From the NCBI GenBank assembly GCA_029204225.1, contig CM055099.1, positions 43,772,914 to 43,836,913 on the forward strand: DNA of 64,000 nt. The letters are read 5' to 3'. Of this stretch, positions 5,981 to 56,340 are shown one piece after another; position 1 is the stretch's first letter; each line of letters begins with the position of its first letter. A program made the translations under genes and the position numbers. The notes under the pieces were generated by a model, which was not told the DNA's origin, ran no database searches, and was given only the letters and a program-made list of their open reading frames with translations. Source of the stretch: Diphasiastrum complanatum (Eukaryota; Streptophyta; Lycopodiopsida; Lycopodiales; Lycopodiaceae).

Positions 5981-6775
5981 TTAAAATAAAAAAATATTTA
6001 CAATACTAAGGACTTGGATAAAGCCAAGATTTGATCTATGTCTTTCAAAGTCCTTCTTAGCTAGAGGCTTGGTGAGTAAATCTGCACAACAATCTGAAGT
6101 TGATACATGCTCAAGGAGAATCTCACCATCCATAACTTTTTCTCTTACATAGTGGTGTGCTACCTCTATGTGTTTACTTCTTGCATGGAAGATTGGATTA
6201 CTTGCAAGATATTGGGCTAAGATGCTATCACATTTGATGCAAGGTATTTCCTCCTCTTGAATGATCCCGAGCTCCACTAGTAATCTTTTGATCCAAATGA
6301 CTTCCTTTGTTGTGATAGTCAAAGCCTTGTACTCGGCTTCACATGAGGATAAGGAGATAGTGTCTTGCTTCTTAGATTGCCAAGAGACAAGATTACCTCC
6401 CAAAAATATTGTATAAGCACTTGTGGACTTTCTATCCACCTTATCACCTACAAAATTCGAATCTGAAAAGGCAACAAGGCTTAAATCATGTCTTTTAAAA
6501 CAAAGTCCATACTCTTGAGTAGATGCAACATATCTCAAGATCCTCTTCTCCTTTTTCCAATCATGGATCTTTGGATTTTGCATGCTTTGACTAAGCTTAT
6601 GCACACTAAAACTAAGATCAGCCCTAGTGCTAGTGAGCCATATTAAAGAGCCTATTAGACTTCTAAAAAGTGTGATGTCCTCAAATGATGCTTCATCACA
6701 AGTTTTAGTGTCTTTAACATTAGACTCCATAGGAGTATCTATGCTTTTATGATCTTGCATTTTAAAACTTCTCAA
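5981..6775 (-). pseudogene. Copia-A RNase H region
   Basis: 264 codons. It contains the copia features SLIGSLIWLT, RADLSFSVHKLSQ, the RNase H acidic patch near AFSDSNF, RKSTSAYTIFLGGNLVSWQS, SLSSCEAEYKAL, the KHIEV motif with YVREKV, and the terminal DLLTKPL. This is the C-terminal domain that degrades the RNA strand during reverse transcription. It overlaps the reverse transcriptase block by a few bases in another frame, so one frameshift separates them. Confidence 0.92.
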
Positions 6776-7320
6776 GCATAGATCTTACATAACTTTCTTG
6801 AGAAATGAAAGCTAAGTCATTAGAGATCTTAATCTCTAATCCAACTACATGATGTAAAAATTCAAGATCTTGCATTTTGAATTCCTTTCCTAAGGAGATC
6901 TTGGTATCAACAAGTAAATCCATGTTGCTTCCACATAATAGAATGTCATCAACATAAATAAGCAACATGATTATATCATTACCAACATGTTTAAGATATA
7001 ATGATGGATCATATGAACTAATCTTGAAACCAATAGAAAGAAGATAAGTGTTCAACCTCTCATACCAAGCCCTTGGAGCTTGTTTCAAGCCATAAAGACT
7101 TTTCAAAAGTAAGCATACTTTTGATCCTTTGTCATTCACAACAAAACCTGGAGGTTAATGCATATATATTTCTTTTTCTAAGTAACCATTTAAGAAAGCA
7201 TTGGAAACATCAAGTTGAAGCATTTTCCAATCATAAAGCAACAAATAGTAATGAGAATTCTAATGGTTACCATCTTTGCTATGGGAGCAAAGGTTTCTTC
7301 ATAATCTATGTCTTTGATTT
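6762..7320 (-). pseudogene. Copia-A reverse transcriptase core
   Basis: The open part (6762-7139) carries KSLYGLKQAPRAWYERL and the catalytic YVDD box in LLIYVDDILLC. The sequence from 7140 to 7320 continues the upstream palm and fingers segment but is out of frame. A plus-strand ORF over 7073-7360 is a shadow. Confidence 0.92.
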
Positions 7321-7756
7321 AGCCTTTAGGACAAAGCCTTGCTTTGCACTTATTGATTGATCCATCATTATTGAGCTTGATTCTATAGACCCACTTGCAT
7401 CCAATGACATGCTTGTCATTATGTGGATCTACAAGTTGCCAAGTCTCATTTTGCATCAAAGCTTCATACTCAGCCTCCATAGCTTTGATCCAATCCTTTG
7501 ATTGAAGAGCTTCATCCACACTTGATGGTTCTTCAATGGAAGTGTGAAAAGCATGTAGAGAACTTGAATCCTCCACTTGTTTGTCTTTTTCCAAGTAGGT
7601 GAGTCTTCTAGGCTCGGATCTCTCTCGGGTTGATCTTCTTGGAGTCATTGGTAGACTTGGCTTCTCTTGTGATCTTGGCCCCAACAAGTCTTCATCTTGA
7701 TCAATACTTGAAGAAGACTCCTCCTTGATGAATAAGCTCTTGAGATTTCTGCACAT
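7319..7756 (-). pseudogene. Copia-A integrase tail and reverse transcriptase N-terminus
   Basis: 145 codons. A charged linker with RRSTRERSEPRRL is followed by the start of the copia reverse transcriptase: KDWIKAMEAEYEAL, NETWQLV, CKWVYRIK and KARLCPKG, where the usual form is KARLVAKG. The frame breaks at both ends. Confidence 0.9.
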
Positions 7757-7861
7757 TGTCCTTCATCTACATTCGATCTTCATGGAAGATCACATCTCTA
7801 CTTATCATAGTTTGATTAGTAGATGGAACAAAAATCCTATAGGCTTTACTTGAGTAGCCTA

Positions 7862-8611
7862 TCATAATGCCTTTAAGAGCATTAGCATCTCCTTTTTTCT
7901 TGTTTCAAGAGGTACATGTACAAAGCATACACATCCAAATGTTCTAGGATGATTGACCTTGGGTTTCCTTCCATACAACTTTTCATAAGGTGAAATATCT
8001 TCTATAGCATGATTTGGCAAAAAATTGCAAAGATAGTTAGCACATCCTATTGCTTCTCCCCAAAAATCTTTAGAAAGAGAGGCTCCTAGTCTAAGTGCCT
8101 TTGCACATTCACATAGAGTTCTATTTTTTCTTTCAACCACTCCATTAGATTGAGGAGAGTAGGAACAAGTGAAATCTCTTCTAATGCCAAAATCATTACA
8201 AAAGTTTATGAACTTTGTGGAGATGTATTCACCTCCATTATCACTTCTCAAAGCTTTAATTTTACAAGGTAGTTGATTCCCAACAAAAGTTTTGAGTTTC
8301 ACAAAAGTTTCATATGCAAGTGCTTTAGAAGATAAGAGGTAAATCCAACAAAAACGTGAGTAATCATCAATAAATGCTAGAAAACATGTAGCTCCACCCT
8401 TGCTCTTGGTGGATGAGAAATGGATGTCACTATGGATGAGTTCCAAAGGTGCTTTGGACTTGATGGTTGATCTTTGATGTGGCCTTGCATGTGATTTAGC
8501 CAATGCACATGCATCACAAGGACTTGGCTCCTTGATCATGGACTTAGGCAAACCATGAGCTAGCTCCAACTTGCACATAGATTGCATGGCCTTGGAGTCG
8601 GGATGACCCAA
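7862..8611 (-). pseudogene. Copia-A integrase core
   Basis: 249 codons. Begins with the pre-integrase zinc motif region (GHPDSKAMQ, then CDACALAKSHARPH). The catalytic core follows, with acidic residues in IHSDIHF, LRSDNGGEY and NGVVERKNRTL. The region FWGEAIGCANYLCN and YGRKP marks the end of the domain. It inserted the cDNA copy into host DNA. It is separated from the neighbouring blocks by frame breaks. Confidence 0.93.
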
Positions 8612-8620
8612 CCTCCTATG

Positions 8621-9457
8621 TCATAGATCTTCATTTGAAAGCTTTCCTTGTAGAACAATATCCGAGCAAAGATTAGCATTTCCATTTCCATCAAGCTTGA
8701 ATAACTTTCCAAAACGATAACATGATGCTATTATATCATCATCTTTTGTGATCAAGCAAGTACCATCTTTAAAATCTACTTGTAGACCATCATCATTGAG
8801 TTGGCCTACACTTATTAGATTCTTAGTCAAACTAGGAACATAGAGCACATCATTGAGATCAAGCTTATCTAATGATATGCTTCCTATGCCTTCTATCATA
8901 CATTCCTCATCATTTGCTGTATAGATACAACTTCTAGATCCTTTGTATGGTATAAGATTACAAAAAGAGTTTCTATCACTACTCATGTGGGATGAGGCAC
9001 CACTATCTAGCCACCATACATTAGAATGCTTGAAAGAGGAAGATGAAAAGTTAGACATCATAAGTGAATCTTCTTTGTCACAAGGAGATTCATATTCACA
9101 AGTGATGTTGGCTTGATTTTTCCTTTTGTAGCGTTGGGAGGCAAAATGCCCGTTCTTGCCACATGAGAAACAAGTAACCTTGTACTTGTTCTTCTTCACA
9201 TTGGATGAGCTTGGTTCCTCCTTGGATGTCTTCTCCATTGCTTTTGTGTTGTCCTTGGAGCTCTTGCCATTCTTCTTGTCTTTTCTCTTCTCCTTGGAAT
9301 TGGTGAAGAGTGCTTGATCACTTCCTCCATCCTTGAGAGACAATCTCTCAAATCTTGCCACTCGAGTTTGATGCCTATGCTCCTCAGCTATCAAGACTCC
9401 TTGTAAGGCTTCTAAAGAGGGTAAATCCTCTTTAATTGCATAAGATTGACGAAGCGT
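8621..9457 (-). pseudogene. Copia-A gag remnant and aspartic protease
   Basis: Reading leftwards: a lysine-rich stretch, a CCHC zinc knuckle (CFSCGKNGHFASQRYK, in which the fourth ligand is not visible), then the protease motif WWLDSGASSHM and LYVPSLTKNLISVGQL. Codons beyond 9457, up to the apparent start at 9502, come from the adjacent LTR-B and are not gag. Most of the capsid part of gag is missing. Confidence 0.9.
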
Positions 9458-9913
9458 GAAGACGTAGACAGGCTGTATGCGAAATACTGTGTAAATATGC
9501 AATTTGTCACATTTTTATTTTTCTCTTTGGTCTCTCACTTCGCATTCTTCAGAAGTCGAACTTTGACATAGAACGCATTGTGGCATTTTGGAAAAATGCG
9601 AAAAAATCATCAAACAGTTTATTTGCTGAAGTAGAGTGGATTGCTGCATTTTTGAAAAAATGCGAAAAAAAATAGACAATCAATTCATTTTTTTCAAACT
9701 GTTTGAAAATAGGGACTGTCGAAAATGTCGCATTTTTTCAAAAAAATGCAAATTGTGCGACAAACGGTTCATTTTTGCACACTGTTGCGAAAATAGTTCA
9801 TTTTTGCGGACTATTGCGAAAACAATACATTTCTGCAGACTGCTTTGAGAGAGTAATTTACATAAGTGAAAAGGAGGGCAATTAGGGTGATAGGAGAAAG
9901 ATTCACTCCAACA
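9458..9913 (-). repeat. LTR-B (partial 3' LTR of copia-B)
   Basis: Starts TGTTGGAGTG on the minus strand at 9913, preceded by the polypurine tract GGGGGAG at 9914-9920. About 450 bp match 24391-24851 in inverted orientation. Only the U3-like half is present: the TATA box and R-U5 seen in the 24-kb copy are missing. It contains three small foldbacks of the form GCATTTT..AAAATGC. Confidence 0.88.
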
Positions 9914-10006
9914 CTCCCCCTTAAGCTTACTACTACGAATTTTAATTAAGATTGAGATTTGACATACCTACTAAAGTACAATGTTTATCTCTTGACAATG
10001 ATTTTG

Positions 10007-10369
10007 TCAAAATATCAGCCAACATATATTGTCTGTATGACAATAACTTAGTATAGCATCTTTATTCTGAACTTTCTCTCTAATAAAATGAAACTGAACT
10101 TCTATGTGTTGAGTTCTAGTATGAGTTCGTGGGCTTGGAGATATAGCTATATAGCTTTGATTGTCGGACTGGAGTATAGTTGGACCGATCTGTGGAAATT
10201 GTAGATCTTGTAGCAACATTCTGAGCCAAATAAACTGCTGATGTAGTTCCAACATATTCTGATTTTGTAGAGGACAACGAAATGCATTTTTGTTTTCTAC
10301 TGTTCTATGAAATGGGTCCTTCTGCAAGGAAACAAATAGAACCTGATGTGGACTTTCTGGTATCCACAT
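10007..10369 (-). pseudogene. Copia-B RNase H C-terminus
   Basis: Contains HRTVENKNAFRCPL (a diverged SLSSTEAEY region), a SDNQS motif, QHIEVQFHFIREKV and a decayed end (CHTDNICWLIF in place of the usual TTKPL type). It overlaps the next block out of frame. Confidence 0.85.
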
Positions 10370-10850
10370 GTCCTGCCCAATCTGAATTTGAATATGTCAC
10401 TAATGTAAGTGCAGCTTCTGTATTACCATTATAGTACAAAGCATAGTGCTTCGTAGCTTGAATGTACTTCAGTACTCTTTGCAGAGCCTTCCAATGCTGT
10501 AAGCCTGGATTGGACATGTATTGAGACAGTGTGCTTACCGCATATGTTAGATCAGGTTGTGTGTACATCATAGAATACATTACAGACTCGATTATCAACT
10601 GATAAGGGTATCTGCACATTTCTTGTTGTTCTGCTTGAGTTCTGGGACACATGTCTTTTGATAGTTTGGATCCTAGATCCATACGTGTGTGTCTACAGTC
10701 CTCCATGCCATATCTACGAAGTAAATTGGTTAGAGAGGCTTCTTCGCTTATAGCGATCCTTCTGCTTGCGCGATCTATGATGATCTCCATACCAAGTAGG
10801 TAATGAACTGGGTCTAAATCAGTCTGATGAAAGCAACGATTTTGTTTCAT
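10305..10850 (-). pseudogene. Copia-B reverse transcriptase end and RNase H
   Basis: 181 codons with DPVHYLLGMEI, KLSKDMCPRT, SVMYSMMYTQPDL, YAVSTLSQYMSNPG, HWKALQRVLKYI, SNSDWAGH and RKSTSGSICFL. It is closely similar to 61140-61929, the copia-C equivalent. Confidence 0.9.
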
Positions 10851-10881
10851 GCAATAATTGATTTAAATTGTTGATAATTAA

Positions 10882-11600
10882 TTAATCATCAAAATACAAT
10901 GCTATTATGACATAGCTTGAGCCTTTACACTTGAGATACACATTTGAGTCTGCGGAGCAAGAAGTAAAGTTGTGCTGCAACAAGAAGTGACTACTTCTTT
11001 CATACCAGGATCTAGGAGCTTGCTTGAGGCTATAGAGTGTCTTTTGCAATTTACATAACATATGCTCTTGGCCTTGAAGGACGTAACCTTTTGGTTGATA
11101 AATGAAAATGTCTTCTTGTATATATTTGTGAAGGAATGTTGTTTGGACGTCCATCTGGTGAATGTCCATACCCTCTGCAACAGCTATAGCTAGCAAGGTT
11201 CGAATATATTGATGCTTTATCACTAGATTGAAAGTGTCAATGTAATCTATTCTGTAAACTTGCTCATATCCTTTAGCCACTAAACGAGCTTTCCATTTGG
11301 ATATTGATCCATCTGGCTTAAGCTTTAGCTTGAAACGGTCAATCGATTTTATACATGTAGGAAGATTAACAAGACTCCAGATCTTGTTCTTCATTAAATA
11401 ATGGTACTCAGCATCCATAGCAACTTTCCATTTGTTTGCATCTGACAATGACAATGCTTCTGCAACAATGGCAAGTTCATCATGATTGATGAACACATGA
11501 GGGATGAAACGATCAGGTTGCTGTCATTGTCATGTAGATCTTCGAACTGCAGGTTCCTGAGCAGATGTCTATCATGGATGAATGATAGGGATGTCTTCAA
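10882..11600 (-). pseudogene. Copia-B reverse transcriptase
   Basis: 204 readable codons (10882-11496), continuing upstream out of frame to about 11600. Motifs are DANKWKVAMDAEYHYL, WSLVNLP, KARLVAKGYEQ, MDVQTTFLHKYI, SLKQAPRSWYER and IIALYFDD. The catalytic box reads YFDD instead of YVDD, so this copy would be inactive even without the frame breaks. Confidence 0.9.
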
Positions 11601-24213: not shown

Positions 24214-24390
24214 AAATTTTAGCGAGTACTTCCTATCCACCTTCAACCCTAGATCCAAGCACATCAAACATCAAAGGAGATGAAGATGATTAACATGTTG
24301 TCACACGGAGATTCGTTCCCATGAGAGCGATAACATTTTTCATAATCAAGCACATGCTTATGATCCACATCTAATACTAAGATTAACAGT

Positions 24391-25100
24391 ATGTGCTAGA
24401 GTTAATCTTTCTCCTACTCATCCTAACTACCCTCCTTTTCACTTATGTAAATCACTCTCTCAAAGTAGTCTGCAGAAATGAACTGTTTTCGCAATAGTCC
24501 ACAAAAATGGACTACTTTTGCAGTCTATAGAAATGAACCGTTTGTCGCATAATTCACATTTTTCCAAAAAATGTGACATTTTTGACAAAGTGACTATTTT
24601 CAAATAGTTTGAAGAAATGAACTGATTGCCGATTTTTCACATTTTCTCAAAAATGTGGCAATCTAGTCTACTTTAGCAAATAAACTGTTTGTTGGTTTTT
24701 TTGCATTTTTTTCAAAATGCCACAATGTGTTCTATGTCGAATTTCGACTTCTGAAAAATGTGAAGTGAGAGACCGAAGAAAAAAAAAAATACGACAAAAC
24801 TGTAGATTTACACAGGATTTTGTGTACAGCCTGTTTACATCTTCACGCTCCATCAATAGCCAATCTATTGATCAATTAAACAGCTATAAATGATCTTGTA
24901 ATTGTAAACTAGAATAACACAGAGATCAAATGACCAAAATTGGTTTTTAGAGTATCTGACTCCTCAGAGTTAGAGATCGTAGAGAGAGAGAGTAAAATAT
25001 TCATAACTATAGGAATTGACTTGTTTTTGTAAGCGCGATTGTCTTGTTATCTTATAGTTGTTCTATCTCATTAAGCACGACCTGTATGCTGATTCAGTAG
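24391..25100 (+). repeat. LTR-B copy, inverted relative to copia-B
   Basis: 24391-24851 matches the inverted LTR-B at 9458-9913. The copy continues through a TATA-like AGCTATAAATG (about 24884) and a short AG run (about 24978-24993), so it is more complete than the left copy. No copia body adjoins it; it is probably a solo or truncated LTR inserted into the gypsy leader. The right end is approximate. Confidence 0.8.
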
Positions 25101-25196: not shown

Positions 25197-25242
25197 AGAG
25201 GAGAAGGATGGAGCTAGTCTGAAGTACTCAGCAAATTTGTCA
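25197..25242 (-). repeat. 46-bp partial copy of the H3-like gene's 3' coding end
   Basis: Matches 25376-25422 within the H3-like ORF with about three differences. It corresponds to the codons for its segment around DKFAEYFRLAPSSP. It lies in direct orientation 180 bp downstream of the ORF's own segment. Confidence 0.85.
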
Positions 25243-25324
25243 TGCTTAGAAAAATTTGTCACTTTATTAGGAGGGTCAAAAGATCTCCTCTTCTTTGAAA
25301 CACTCTCATTCTGTACTCAAAAAA

Positions 25325-25783
25325 CTAGCCGGGATGGTTGAGATTGTTTTCGGTTTTTTTTTCTGCATCTTGTTTAGGAGGAGAGGATGGAGCTAGTCTG
25401 AAGTACTCAGCAAATTTGTCATAAGTGTCCCGTAGTTTGAACATGACGTTGAAATCTTTCGGCATGATGGTCACCGTTTTGGAATGGACAGCTGCAACAA
25501 GACTATCTGAAGAATTTTTCACTTGGAAATTCTCATATGCTGTGTGTAGAGCTTTAATTGTCGTTACAGTCCATCTCACATCTGCAGATAGACTTCTTGT
25601 TACCTGTCTGATGGATCTCTGTATGTGAGCTTTCAGAATAAGAAGATTATTGGTCTTCTGTAGCTTCCAAATATCCTTCAGCCATGGCGGGTCTCTTGGT
25701 CTGCCCCTTGGCCTAGGAGGAGGTGGTGGTGGACGAGACGGTGGTGGTGGATTGATACGTGCTGTTTGCTTAGTGCTTACCAT
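25325..25783 (-). CDS. Divergent histone H3-like protein with AT-hook
   Basis: Intact 152-codon intronless ORF starting at ATG. Residues 2-9 (VSTKQTAR) match the H3 tip (ARTKQTAR), keeping T3, K4, Q5, T6, A7 and R8 but with Ile at position 9. The usual tail (K9-K36) is replaced by a proline-rich stretch with an AT-hook core, R-G-R-P at 27-30 flanked by R/P. From about residue 35 a histone fold aligns with H3 without gaps: alphaN with LQKTNNLLI, alpha1 to about 70, RWT at 70-72, alpha2 to about 99, VTIMPKDF at 104-111, then alpha3. I count about 31 identities in 87 columns against canonical H3. The Trp71 and Phe111 substitutions occur in plant CENH3, but there is no loop-1 insertion. The C-terminal tail (126-152) is extra, rich in S, P, K and N. 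Neighbours are an LTR and repeats. It could be a live variant, a retrogene, or a transposon-borne histone. Confidence 0.72.
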   Translation of the reverse strand: MVSTKQTARINPPPPSRPPPPPPRPRGRPRDPPWLKDIWKLQKTNNLLILKAHIQRSIRQVTRSLSADVRWTVTTIKALHTAYENFQVKNSSDSLVAAVHSKTVTIMPKDFNVMFKLRDTYDKFAEYFRLAPSSPPKQDAEKKTENNLNHPG

Positions 25784-25915: not shown

Positions 25916-25923
25916 ATTATATA
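25916..25923 (-). promoter_or_regulatory. Possible TATA box of the H3-like gene
   Basis: TATATAAT on the minus strand about 133 bp upstream of the H3-like ATG, a plausible promoter distance. There is no other evidence. Confidence 0.35.
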
Positions 25924-26300
25924 GTGCCAACTCCAAAATGATTGCAGTCGTGGTGGTTTGGAATATTGAGGCACAGATTACGGTCATCTCTTAATTCGAG
26001 ATATTCTGAGACTTGAAAATCAAATCCTAATCAAATATCCATCGGTCATCAAAATGATTAGTCGATATGGCTAATGATGACTGTAATTATGGAAAAGCAT
26101 GGAAAAGTGATTATGAAAAAGTATGGTCACAGAATATAATTTCTGCATCTAATTTTGATATCCATTCATATAATTTCGAAAGATTTCAACGACCTTTTTT
26201 TTCTCCAATAGAGAATCGATGTGCGGATACTGGATGTGTCCCCCAGAGAAGCTATTCTCGCGCTTTGAATCGATATTGGATTGCAATATGAATGATCAGA

Positions 26301-26356
26301 GCTTGACTTGATAGATTCTTCTTAGCTTTATATTGTAAGAATCTACCGAGGCAAGC
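26301..26356. repeat. Short foldback, copy 1
   Basis: Arms 26301-26320 (GCTTGACTTGATAGATTCTT) and 26337-26356 pair with a few mismatches around a 16-nt loop. A diverged second copy lies at 26557-26615. Confidence 0.7.
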
Positions 26357-26556
26357 TTTGATCATACATAATGTCGTCCAATAATTTCGACAGATTTCAA
26401 AAACCTTTTTTTTTCCTACAATAGCAATTCGACATGCTAAGTCCTAGGAAAAAAACTCTTTCTTCTCTCAGGCATGCTCATCCGATATCTGAGTCCCCCA
26501 GTAAAGCTATCTGAGTCACGCTGAACATATATTAGACGGCACTGTAAATCATCAGA

Positions 26557-26615
26557 GCTTGCCTTGGCAGATTCTTTTTAGCTTTGGACTGTATGAGGAA
26601 TCTACCGAAGCAAGT
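26557..26615. repeat. Short foldback, copy 2
   Basis: Arms 26557-26576 (GCTTGCCTTGGCAGATTCTT) and 26596-26615 pair over about 17 bp with two mismatches. Flanks such as AATCATCAGA and AATGTAGTCCAA are shared with copy 1, so the whole unit is duplicated at a spacing of about 256 bp. Confidence 0.7.
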
Positions 26616-30079: not shown

Positions 30080-41694
<11,615 letters not shown>

Positions 41695-42640: not shown

Positions 42641-44781
42641 GTTATATTTTTTTGGTTACAAACGTGCATTTATGTGCAAAAACCATTTTGAATTTTGTTT
42701 TCACATGTTGCACTGTAGAGTTGGAAACATAGCTCATCAAGTAGCATGTCATTAGATTCGAGTTTTTTTATTGTGGATTAAAGTGATACTCAATTCATGA
42801 TCATTTCTAACTTTCCAATAGGACAAAACCCCAATGAAGTGAGTTTGGATATTATCTACCTCATTTGAGTTATGTGAAACATGAACAAAATGTGAAAGTA
42901 GTGTTTTCTTTTGGTCCATCTTGTTAATGACATGTCCCAAATATTTTATGGGGACTTCTAACATTGCTTTCTATGTTCTGCAAACTTGATATGCTCAATT
43001 GTGTATTGTTTCAAGCGTAGCTACAAAGCTTCAACTACCATGTGACACTTTTCAAGTCTAATCAAGATCATGTGACGCTGCAATTATATCCATAGATGTA
43101 TAATTCAATCACAAGGCTAACTAGTTGCACATATATTTTGTGATTGTACATTTTAGACCTCTCTATGTAAGATAATTAATCAACATAGTTTTGTGTGCAA
43201 CATACATGAGCTTGACGACCAACAGACTAAAATAACCAATGTTTGTCATTCTTAATAGAATAGGCTACTACGTGTCCGTCTATTTGAGAAAATACCTTTT
43301 CTCTAGTTAGACATAGATGCAATTAATCAATGTACTCTTGCATTGTCATTCATCACATAATATCAATTGATTATTAGTCAATTTTACTTCTTGGGTCTAT
43401 CAAAAATGTTATGATTGTAAAACTATCAATTATGGTTGTCAATGTGTTTGTGAATCTACTCTCTAGAATTGTGGTCGATTCTTCAGTGCAATAATTGATC
43501 TCATGGTTGCCAAAGACATCTCAAATATCAATTCCCAGCAGTTGAAAATACAACAATCAACTTGTCATAATGCCCTCCTACTACAAAACTTTGCATGTAA
43601 TTCGGAATGGCGCATATATGCAAGATGGCGACGATGAATGCATAGGTGAGACATGCATGCATCATGCGGCTTAGAGTTTGTGGTAGATATCAAAAATTCT
43701 TTCGTGATGTATCTAAACCCCATTCCTGTGCTTGCGAAACTTTCAAAGAAGTGAAGGATGTCAATATGCATAGCTTTCAACAACTTACAAGCTTATCATA
43801 ATGAGGTAGTACTTTTTTTTTTATTTTGAAAATCTCATTCAAATGTATTCTAAATATTGTAGTTTTACTTTTATCTCTTCCTACAAGGTACATCAATTGA
43901 GAGGGACTTCATTTTATGTAATTATTAAATGTGGTTCTTCATGAACAATTGTTGCTACTTCCATTGTTGCAGATTACCTCTTTGTTGCCATGTGCCACAC
44001 CAATTTTGAGCCTTATTATTGGCTGGCTACTTGATTTCTTTGAGAATATTTCAACACCGGTTCTTGGCGCTTCTATCACTGGTTCTTCAGCTTTAATCCT
44101 TATCACTTGTTGTCTTTTTCTTGGGTTTTCAGCGTTACCGCCAAGCTGATTCTCATAGTTGGATTTTAATCAATTTTCGTCCTCTTTTCTCCCTATTTTT
44201 AGGCTACTTCATTATTGCTTCTTGAGGATATTGTAGTGTTTTTTCCACACTACTCCATCATGATTTTTTTAGATTACTTTAGTGAGGTATTGCTACCATT
44301 TTCAGCACTCAATTCTTACTACTTCGTTATTGATTTTGATACATATTTTTGATAAGGTTTACTGCTATTTTTACTTGCTACTTGGAGACTATCGTTGCTA
44401 CTCTTTCTTAGCACAATTTTCAATATCATTTTGACATTGACTAATGATATCTCTTCACACTTTGGAGGTGATCTTCTCATCTTAATTTCTTATAGTTACT
44501 ACTCTATTTAATTCTTAAGATTCATTGAAATATTCGATGGGGAAGATTTTCACATGTGCAAATTCAAAATGAAGATGATTCTTCTAGAGCGAATCCATCA
44601 ATGTCCTTAGCCCTAGTTAATCCAAACAAGTCATTGTTTTTTTTCCATTCGCGCATAGATGACACTATTGCACAGCTTGAAACCGATTTGTCAAGGGAGC
44701 CCTAGTCATGAATGCTGCAAAAGTCGGTTTCAGGAAAAAAAAAACCTTTGAAAAAAACGTGCAAAAATGAGACCGAAAAAT
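42641..44781. other. No recognised gene
   Basis: AT-rich intergenic DNA with only short ORFs and no domain that I recognise. Confidence 0.55.
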
Positions 44782-45137
44782 GTTGGAGCAAAACATCATG
44801 AAAACCCGAACAACAAAATTTGGGCAAGTTACGGGCAATAAGCAGAATGTGCAGGCCAAGTCGGTAACTCAGTAGGGCAAAAACCCAACAAACAGGCCAA
44901 CCAGTACACGCTATCAAAAAAATCAAGGAGAAGCCAAATGGGGTACTAAAAAATCAAGGAGAGGCCATATGTTGGGGCAAAACATCATGAAAATCCTAAC
45001 GACAAAATTTAAGCAAGTTTCGGGCAATAAGCAGAATGGCAGGCCAGGTCGGTAACTCAGTAGGGCAAAAACCCAACAAACAGGCCAACCAATACACGCT
45101 ATCAGAAAAATCAAGGAGAGGTCAAATGGGGTACTAA
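44782..45137. repeat. 189-bp tandem duplication
   Basis: Units start at 44782 and 44971 (GTTGG(A/G)GCAAAACATCATG) and share GGCAATAAGCAGAATG, GTCGGTAACTCAGTAGGG and CACGCTATCA. The twin minus-strand ORFs with CIGWPVCWVFALLSYRPGLP-like text are a product of this duplication, not genes. Confidence 0.93.
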
Positions 45138-45969
45138 GAAAAACGAAGGCCACCTACAAAAATAGGGGTTGACAAAGGGTACCACCCAAATTTGGATAAT
45201 AATGGGTAAGAGAACTTGGAAGCTAAAAATTTAGGAAGGGTGCACCCACTAGCCTTTGACAAAAGTGACCATCTATGCTAGTTTTGGGTGTGCCCAAGAG
45301 GAAGGCTTTAAATGCACCACTCCTCCACTCTCTGATGGAGGCCACTTGGTGTACTTTTTCAATAGGGTGTGAACAATTGGCGAAAGGCTTGAAGTGCATG
45401 AAAGTTGGCAAAACCCCATCTTGAGGGGGGGACCATTGGGAGTTGGCTATAAGAAGGAGCCCACTCTTTGTATTTTGAGAGTTAGTATATTTTGGATTCT
45501 TGTTTTATTGTTTCATACGAGTGGAGAGCTTCATATGATGTGTTTGTGAGTGTTTGAGTTGTACTTTTGGGTTGTGTGTTGTTTGATGGTACGAGTTGCA
45601 TAATGAGTAGTGTGCTTTGCTTTTGGAGCGATGATTCTTGGTTGAGGGTTGCCTCACTAGCATGTTTACTTCTTGGTTGAGAAATGATAGTGATCTACAA
45701 ATCGTTAGGTGTGTGTTGTTCATGCTTGGTTGTGAGTGATTCATAGTATGCTAAAGCTCATGCTTTGCTTGCTTTGAGTTTAGAGTTCCTTTGAGTTTTT
45801 GGTTGCTTGAAGTATTGCATTTGGATGGAGAGTGTGGCAATGCTAAGGGTTGAATGAGTTGCTTGTGTGATGTTTTGATTGATTAGTTGCTGATTTTTTT
45901 TCAGCCATTGTGTTTTCTGGCTTTTTTATTTTGTTTTTTATAGACTTGTGATGTAGTTTTCTTTGAACT
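45138..45969. other. No recognised gene
   Basis: G/T-rich on the plus strand with repeated TTGAGTG-type words (45545-45860). No supported coding region. Confidence 0.45.
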
Positions 45970-54250: not shown

Positions 54251-54306
54251 CGTCTTGCCAAGAGTGTTCTTTGGAGGATTTTGCGCTTTTGCTGCCGGCG
54301 AAGGCC

Positions 54307-56340
54307 ATGCCCCCCTTAGCATGCGTGGAAGGGTGTCAGGCCCTTTCTTTCGATACTCTCAATGGCTCTTTTGCATTAGATATTGACAAATCGAGCGCAA
54401 ACTGGTCCCCAGAGAAATCTATGGGTTTATACAGGATAAACGGATGGGGATCACCCTATTTTGTTATCAACAAACAAGGTAATATGGCTGTACGTCCTCA
54501 TGGCAGCGCAAGCCACTCTGACGAGATAGACCTCGTGGAAGTTTTGCAAAAGATTCAAGAGGGCGGAGAAATGGCTCCTCCCTTGATCATCCGTTTCCCC
54601 GAAATCCTTCGAAACAGGATCGAGACATTACAAGGTGGATTTAACACTGCTATTCTCCTTCGAGGATATATGGGCAGCTTCCAGGGCGTATTTCCGATTA
54701 AGTGCAACCCTGACCGCTTCGTGGTTGAAGATATTGTCAAGTTCGGTCGGAGCTTCTCTTTTGGGCTCGAGGCAGGATCGAAACCCGAGCTAGTGATGGC
54801 GATTGCATGCATGTCAAAACTTGCAAGTAAAAATGCCCTTCTCATTTGCAATGGCTACAAAGATGCTGAGTACATGCAGCTAGCATTGGTGTCTCGAAGA
54901 CTTGGAATACAGTCCGTGATTGTTTTGGAGGAGGAAGATGAACTAGACCTGGTTCTCAAGACAAGCGAGATATTGCAAGTGCAGCCTGTGATCGGTGTTC
55001 GAGCGAAGCTTAGCACTAAACACGGGGGCCACTGGGGAGAAACCTCTGGAGACAAAGGCAAATTTGGTTTATCGTCATTCCAGTTGCTAAGAGTGGCTCA
55101 AAAACTGAAGAAGCTCGAGATGATGGAATGCCTTCAATTGCTGCACTTTCATATAGGATCTCAGATTCCATCTTTGTCCATTCTCAAGGAAGGGGTTAGC
55201 GAGGCAGCTCATATCTACTGCGAGCTCTCTCGCATGGGAGCTGGCATGAAATATTTAGACGTCGGTGGCGGACTTGGGGTAGACTACGATGGATCGTACT
55301 CATCTGCTTCGAAAATGTCTGTTGGTTACACCACTACCGAGTATGCCGAGCAGGTGGTGAATGCGGTCGCTGATGCCTGTGCGGTGAAGAATGTGAATCC
55401 TCCCATTATCTGCTGCGAGAGTGGCCGGGGATTGGTCTCTCATCACTCCGTACTTTGTTTTCAGGCCATGTCCACTAGCCAAATGCCGGATCACAGTGAA
55501 AGGTTGAGCAGCATGGAGCAAGATCTGAGAGCTCTATTTGAAATGGAAAGCCTTCCCCAAGAATTGATGGCTTTATTAAGCAAAATTACCCATCTGGTTC
55601 GAGTTGGAGATTTTGCCAATGCCGTTGCTTCTGCTAAGCATCTCAAGCAAGAATGTGCACGGCTATTCAAACGTGGTCTGCTAAATTTGGAGGTAAGAGC
55701 TTTGGCTGATAGGGTTAATGAGATCCTCTGTCATATTAGTAATCCTGAATCCCAAATTACTACCTACAACATAAACCTCTCAATATTCAAGTCCATACCA
55801 GATAGCTGGGCAATCGGCCAGATTTTCCCAATTGTTCCTTTACAAACATTGGATCAAGAACCAGACGTGCAGGCAGTTTTGTCTGATCTAACGTGTGACA
55901 GCGATGGCAAAATATGTTCATTTGTTGGTGGTGACGCACATGAAAAGAAGGCCGCTCAATGCCTTCATCTGCACAAACTTCAAGCTGGCAGACCTTATTA
56001 CCTGGGTATGTTCCTGGGAGGCGCATATCAAGAAATCTTAGGCAGCATGCACAATCTTTTTGGTTCGACACATGTGGTTCACATATTGGGAAAGGCCGAA
56101 GGCAGTTTCCAAATTTTCCGTGAGTTGCCAGGCCAAACCATATCCAATGTTTTGCGTGCTATGCAACATGATCCAGCCAACATGACAAATGATCTTCAGG
56201 CTCGTGTGGTCTCTGCTCTTCAAGAAGGGCGATTCAAAGATCAAACCGAAGCAACGGCGACTTTAAATATTATATTCTCTAGCTTCTCTTCATACACCTA
56301 CCTCGCTCCTGATCGCCATTTTAGTTCTCACACAGAGTAA
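54307..56340 (+). CDS. ADC: Arginine decarboxylase
   Basis: Single intronless ORF, 677 aa from the first ATG (54307, context GGCCATGCC); 12 in-frame codons upstream begin with TTG and are leader. It converts arginine to agmatine using pyridoxal phosphate, the first step of the plant arginine route to putrescine and polyamines. The N-terminus (MPPLACVEG) resembles other plant enzymes. The PLP lysine is K132 in FPIKCNPDRFVVEDI. HFHIGSQ is at 280-286, the glycine-rich phosphate-binding DVGGGLGVDYDG starts at 318, CESGRG is at 370-375, and the active-site cysteine is C530 in TCDSDGKI. YYLGMFLGGAYQE is at 564-576. Length is slightly short of the usual 700-720. The promoter and leader with uORFs and a GC hairpin suggest translational control. 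No defects seen. Confidence 0.97.
   Translation: MPPLACVEGCQALSFDTLNGSFALDIDKSSANWSPEKSMGLYRINGWGSPYFVINKQGNMAVRPHGSASHSDEIDLVEVLQKIQEGGEMAPPLIIRFPEILRNRIETLQGGFNTAILLRGYMGSFQGVFPIKCNPDRFVVEDIVKFGRSFSFGLEAGSKPELVMAIACMSKLASKNALLICNGYKDAEYMQLALVSRRLGIQSVIVLEEEDELDLVLKTSEILQVQPVIGVRAKLSTKHGGHWGETSGDKGKFGLSSFQLLRVAQKLKKLEMMECLQLLHFHIGSQIPSLSILKEGVSEAAHIYCELSRMGAGMKYLDVGGGLGVDYDGSYSSASKMSVGYTTTEYAEQVVNAVADACAVKNVNPPIICCESGRGLVSHHSVLCFQAMSTSQMPDHSERLSSMEQDLRALFEMESLPQELMALLSKITHLVRVGDFANAVASAKHLKQECARLFKRGLLNLEVRALADRVNEILCHISNPESQITTYNINLSIFKSIPDSWAIGQIFPIVPLQTLDQEPDVQAVLSDLTCDSDGKICSFVGGDAHEKKAAQCLHLHKLQAGRPYYLGMFLGGAYQEILGSMHNLFGSTHVVHILGKAEGSFQIFRELPGQTISNVLRAMQHDPANMTNDLQARVVSALQEGRFKDQTEATATLNIIFSSFSSYTYLAPDRHFSSHTE

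Follow-up and report, generated by a model that had tools for sequence, protein, structure and literature searches.

In the usual view the position of a centromere is independent of DNA sequence and is marked by cenH3. Replication-coupled H3 genes are intronless. The features stated for cenH3 in PMC4359364 include a loop 1 longer than that of H3 and a divergent tail, and the banana CENH3 genes mostly have seven exons and six introns. The lily generative-cell histones gH3, gcH3 and leH3 are divergent plant H3s that trees do not readily tell apart from cenH3 (PMC3380720). In fission yeast, the proline-rich GRANT motif of CENP-A, printed as PDGPIPRP, binds the NASP-type chaperone Sim3 (PMC9602348).

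In a 64-kb stretch of the Diphasiastrum complanatum genome (the window, meaning the whole stretch of DNA that was analysed), a minus-strand ORF at 25325-25783 is open from ATG to stop over 152 aa and contains no intron, just as the preliminary description had reported an intact ORF. Its parts and flanking features are as follows.

25325..25783, minus strand: intronless H3-family histone ORF, 152 aa (ORF reading, Pfam, PDB search, alignment)
25757..25783, minus strand: H3-like tip MVSTKQTAR, residues 1-9 (alignment)
25709..25756, minus strand: Pro/Arg linker INPPPPSRPPPPPPRP, residues 10-25, replacing H3 9-39 (alignment, translation)
25697..25708, minus strand: RGRP, residues 26-29, AT-hook-like core aligned to H3 R40-x-R42-P43 (alignments)
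25430..25681, minus strand: core of the histone fold (residues 35-118), aligned to H3 48-131 with no gap, 31/84 identical
25328..25417, minus strand: 30-residue C-terminal extension past the H3 end, residues 123-152 (alignments)
25384..25422, no strand assigned: 39-bp segment within the ORF, exact copy of 25205-25243 (repeat search; 45/46 positions in a second comparison)
25205..25243, no strand assigned: the identical 39 bp again, in the 3' flank, 179 bp from the ORF segment (repeat search)
25917..25923, minus strand: TATATAA, 140 nt upstream of the ATG (motif scan)
25263..25268, minus strand: AATAAA, starting 57 nt after the stop (motif scan)

The claimed homology to histone H3 is borne out by the gapless core, by a significant profile-HMM match (Pfam-A Histone PF00125, E 2.9e-13, 50.6 bits against a cut-off of 26.4) and by the PDB, where 173 distinct sequences match at E <= 0.01. 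The best 60 of these 173 are all H3-type by name, headed by H3mm15 (E 3.1e-13), and CENP-A is absent among them. By phmmer, H3.1 is the best match at 50.6 bits, ahead of Arabidopsis CENH3 at 47.1 bits. The H3-specific elements are all present, namely the TKQTAR tip, an R-x-R-P before alphaN, and VTIMPKD. Judged by this homology, the ORF encodes a very divergent H3-family histone. A single-chain AlphaFold model made without an alignment has a pLDDT of 46.3 over the whole protein and 47.6 over residues 30-131; its predicted helices follow the histone order at a confidence too low to rely on.

No second histone locus was found in the 64-kb window by tblastn with a histone set: a 13-residue duplicate of this histone's own C-terminal tail gave E 0.001, and all other rows had E >= 0.059. 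A protein database returned 329 candidates for the full protein, none at E <= 0.001, and one candidate for residues 30-130, with none at E <= 0.01. Canonical H3 also has VTIMPKD, so this database seemingly contains almost no eukaryotic H3, and its silence would be uninformative on orthologues. Among viral contigs (3 pattern matches) and genome contigs (25 pattern matches) no relative was found, and phages gave zero matches, all of which is to be expected of a plant gene.

The core identity amounts to 31/84 against Arabidopsis H3.1 and 30/84 against human H3, both reference sequences being provisional; of the earlier by-eye figure of 31/87, the gapless alignment and the 31 identities stand, and the aligned length becomes 84. 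Retained H3 residues include K56, K64, R69, R72, R83, H113, K115, T118, K122 and D123, and the substitutions include R63 to L, K79 to S, F84 to W, L103 to N, F104 to S, R116 to T and L126 to V. The Trp at the F84 position in loop 1 and the Phe after the KD motif are both present as first described, and they form part of a wider excess of CENH3-type residues. The protein resembles H3.1/H3.3 in its gapless fold, loop 1 length, TKQTAR tip, VTIMPKD and lack of introns; unlike them, it has a core only 31/84 identical, a replaced 9-39 segment, no K79, R63 or R116, and a C-terminal extension. With the Arabidopsis CENH3 HTR12 (provisional sequence) it shares 34/84 core positions, a loop-1 W followed by T, T75, S-D-S, the F after KD, and L130, together with a divergent tail. 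Unlike HTR12, it has a loop 1 two residues shorter, an altered RPGTVAL, a retained VTIMPKD, a 30-aa C-terminal extension and no intron. As a divergent plant H3 it can also be set beside lily gH3, gcH3 and leH3, by description only.

When three plant CENH3s are compared with H3, 13 core residues of the ORF protein are found in plant CENH3 only and 5 in H3 only, the plant CENH3 sequences being provisional. Null models of descent from H3, which carry no site-specific limits of the histone fold, give a mean of 3.3-3.9 CENH3-only residues, and 13 was reached in 0/3000 runs under each of two rate schemes and in 0/1500 with either of two codon models. The number of H3-only residues, in contrast, is unremarkable: under the two rate schemes, 9% and 93% of runs had <=5. 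Two trypanosomatid H3s used as controls against the plant set give CENH3-only/H3-only counts of 3/12 and 3/11. With a set of seven cenH3s the query has 18 CENH3-only residues and 1 H3-only residue (null mean 6.2-7.0; 0/3000 each), and the trypanosomatid controls have 9/4 and 12/4. The fly CID row was excluded from the CENH3 sets. With PDB-verified CENP-A alone (human CENP-A, Cse4, and a chimeric chicken CENP-A that begins with H3 sequence) the excess is modest: the count is 8 against a null of 3.3-3.7, it was reached in 11/1500 and 38/1500 runs, and one trypanosomatid control reaches 7. Taken singly, the CENH3-only/H3-only counts are 11/8 for Arabidopsis, 7/6 for rice, 3/8 for maize and 3/7 for S. 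pombe, which makes Arabidopsis and rice the main sources of the signal. Arabidopsis CENH3 also has the highest core identity among the 11 sequences compared (34/84, against 31/84 for H3.1). By these counts, the core has more residues in common with CENH3, in the provisional sequences used, than H3 ancestry alone yields.

Phylogeny and architecture give a more mixed picture. In a maximum-likelihood tree of 14 rows, built from an alignment from which 4 of 90 columns had been removed, the query joins Arabidopsis CENH3 with support 60/75; a group of the query and the three plant CENH3s is supported at 47/2.7, the query's branch length is 2.33, and a grouping with H3 is not rejected (p-AU 0.346). 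Loop 1 is of H3 length, one residue shorter than in rice CENH3 and two shorter than in Arabidopsis CENH3 and human CENP-A (the rice and Arabidopsis sequences being provisional), and so does not show the lengthening described for cenH3. Because of this H3-length loop, the missing introns, the phmmer ranking and the weak tree, membership of the cenH3 class is not established.

The reading that we prefer, tentatively, is a fast-evolving cenH3-type H3, which could be the CENH3 of this plant, although a paralogue of that CENH3 is the likelier case. The Pfam and PDB homology, the 13 against 5 residues, the divergent tail and the flanking TATATAA and AATAAA speak in its favour, and the H3-like TKQTAR and VTIMPKD, the N and S in place of L103 and F104, and the loss of R63 and R116 speak against it. 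A serious though doubtful alternative is a lineage-specific, divergent, non-centromeric H3, for example a gamete-specific one resembling the lily generative-cell H3s, derived from an intronless replication-type H3, in which the CENH3-like residues would be convergent and permitted by the fold. Such an origin agrees with H3.1 as the best phmmer match, with the H3-length loop 1, H3 tip, VTIMPKD and lack of an intron, with the unrejected H3 grouping, and with the trypanosomatid H3s, which likewise gain residues of the wide cenH3 set; those same controls, however, show no excess against the plant set, and the plant-CENH3-type residues of the ORF exceed the H3-derived nulls.

The new C-terminal tail noted earlier is present, at 30 residues past the last residue of H3 rather than 27. 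Its codons include a nine-A run, on which the frame of the last ~14 residues rests, and it overlaps the 39-bp repeat, so part of the extension may be a recent local duplication. TATATAA, seen upstream, has 6 occurrences in the whole window, both strands counted, with ~0.009 expected per 200 nt of one strand; AATAAA is frequent by chance (0.175 per 200 nt). Two codons separate the ATG from an in-frame TGA before it, and no poly(A) tract was seen by eye in the 404 nt past the stop.

The surroundings of the gene include pieces that resemble mobile elements. Ty1/copia-like pieces lie at 5981-9502 and 10007-11496 (minus strand) over several ORFs, with Pol_BBD in 8621-9502 and RVT_2 in 10882-11496 by Pfam, which was run on 11 of the 25 window ORFs of >=120 aa. 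An inverted repeat pair of ~490 bp (24372-24857 and 9445-9935, 82.7%), both copies with 29-bp tandem repeats, places one copy at the upstream end of the minus-strand copia-like ORFs (9445-9935) and the other just 3' of the histone gene (24372-24857); given the position of the former, the latter may be a solo LTR. Some 400-800 bp upstream of the histone ATG, 26170-26614 contains overlapping direct and inverted repeats with 47-nt arms, 79-81% complementary, and could be a small mobile element. Facing away from the histone gene, 30080-30493 (plus strand) is a probable exon for a GH79 glycosyl hydrolase N-terminus (E 8.6e-19). A 188-bp unit is repeated in 1.9 copies at 44780-45142 (92% matches), and an uninterrupted arginine decarboxylase (ADC) ORF of 689 aa lies at 54271-56340 (plus strand; Orn_Arg_deC_N, E 3.2e-31). 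Taken together, the copia-like pieces, the ADC ORF and the GH79 exon suggest land-plant DNA.

That the ORF is instead a non-functional or decaying H3 or CENH3 copy, open by chance and perhaps a former retrocopy, is unlikely. It is intronless and sits amid copia-like elements, and codon usage trained on the ADC ORF gives no coding signal: the stop-to-stop histone ORF scores -0.013 and ranks 69th of 109 among ORFs of >=80 codons with the ADC region excluded, and in the core another frame scores higher than the true one (0.102 vs -0.066). Over the C-terminal extension, the true frame outscores both others (0.218). A test trained on one gene is weak, yet it counts against coding. The loss of the fold residues L103 and F104, the nine-A run in the codons after the H3 end, and the 39-bp duplication at the C-terminus are likewise in keeping with decay, as is the proline stretch of the linker, whose codons are CCA or CCT in most cases and look like triplet slippage. 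Neutral decay to 31/84 identity, however, takes ~0.53 changes per site, after which 84 codons remained stop-free in 3% of 4000 runs even before any indels; the probability of escaping a frameshift ranges from 0.12 to 1e-7 (0.12 at an assumed indel ratio of 0.02, 2e-5 at 0.1). Hydrophobic positions are retained at 26 of H3's 30, against 20.4 +/- 2.4 under neutral decay, a value reached in 1.5% of runs. The start codon, tip and entire core in a single frame, the TATATAA upstream and the lack of a visible poly(A) tract also argue against a decaying copy. The decay figures favour selection for most of the history of the ORF; present use is unproven.

As first described, much of the N-terminal tail has been replaced: H3 residues 9-39 (31 aa) are exchanged for the 16-aa Pro/Arg-rich linker. 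The tip reads VSTKQTAR against ARTKQTAR in H3, retaining K4 and R8 and altering A1 and R2. Many K4 readers rely on A1 and R2 of H3, so the earlier proposal that regulation through K4 is kept is weakened by these two changes, even though K4 itself is present. As for other lysines, K56, K64, K115 and K122 are present, and K79 is absent, as is R63.

An AT-hook, the other element claimed for the tail, is represented by an R-G-R-P core at residues 26-29, but the segment coincides with H3's own R40-x-R42-P43 in both the HMMER and MAFFT alignments, sitting one residue farther from L48 than the R-x-R-P of H3. It is therefore probably part of the H3 backbone rather than of the inserted linker, and the first reading, an inserted AT-hook, was set aside. 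On this alignment a single Tyr/Phe41-to-Gly change would suffice to create the AT-hook core. When the linker is shuffled 200000 times, an R-x-R-P falls within one residue of the H3 place in 5.8% of shuffles, which makes homology of the segment likely but unproven, and RGRP itself occurs in 2.1% of them. In nucleosome structures, this stretch of H3 (R40-P43) is where the tail crosses the minor groove at the ends of the nucleosomal DNA.

In its P-R-G-R-P-R core the protein resembles AT-hook proteins such as HMGA and plant AHL; unlike them, it has a single core, followed by D-P-P, that is inside a histone and unreported by Pfam. A basic residue is usual after the core in the AT-hook consensus. 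Pfam gave no AT-hook report at E <= 1 for the whole protein or at E <= 10 for two peptides; the AT_hook model is very short, and HMMER filters may drop such peptides. With a core that coincides with an H3 segment, no AT-hook reported by Pfam and a D where a basic residue is usual, the proposed built-in preference for A/T-rich DNA is reduced to something possible. The fuller scenario, a cenH3-type histone that uses H3 R40-Y41-R42-P43 as an AT-hook, lacks K9, K27 and K36, keeps the K4 tip, and forms a centromeric or gamete nucleosome preferring A/T-rich DNA, is in our estimate improbable.

The layout had been put forward as undescribed. In a literature-only search, neither a variant with this layout nor an AT-hook-bearing H3 occurs among the titles and abstract openings of the matches listed, in most cases 5 to 20 of up to 752, and in the CENP-A-related literature consulted the AT-hook mentioned is that of Mif2 only. 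Fission-yeast Cnp1 has a comparably short tail with a proline/arginine stretch (the GRANT PDGPIPRP) a short way before a presumed R-x-R-P segment. Unlike the ORF histone, Cnp1 (provisional sequence; core 27/84) has a longer loop 1 and no R-G-R-P.

Highly improbable is a histone-fold protein that has left the nucleosome, for example as a subunit of a kinetochore or repair complex or as a DNA-binding factor of the AT-hook kind. The altered core residues, the C-terminal extension and two weak hits in Pfam, CENP-T_C (E 0.055) and CENP-S (E 0.093), might suggest it. Both hits, however, are well below their cut-offs and overlap the Histone match, and it is H3 in particular to which the protein, its H3 tip retained, aligns without a gap.

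Under the preferred reading of a fast-evolving cenH3-type H3, the known contact roles of the retained histone-fold residues suggest how the protein could act. It would pair with H4 through the retained alpha1-alpha2-alpha3 fold and with a second copy of itself through H113 and D123, the DNA being wrapped by R69, R72, R83, K64 and K115, and it would take the place of H3 at a limited number of sites. Its Pro/Arg tail may act like the GRANT motif of fission-yeast CENP-A and be bound by a NASP-type chaperone. RGRPR could grip the minor groove where the tail exits the nucleosome, so that A/T-rich DNA would be favoured there.

Whether a centromere histone can read base composition could be tested directly on an H3 or cenH3 whose AT-hook core lies at the minor-groove crossing. 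The protein would further illustrate how small a change (Y41 to G) turns an H3 segment into an AT-hook. If the AT-hook cenH3 reading is true, a plant would have a centromere histone that reads sequence.
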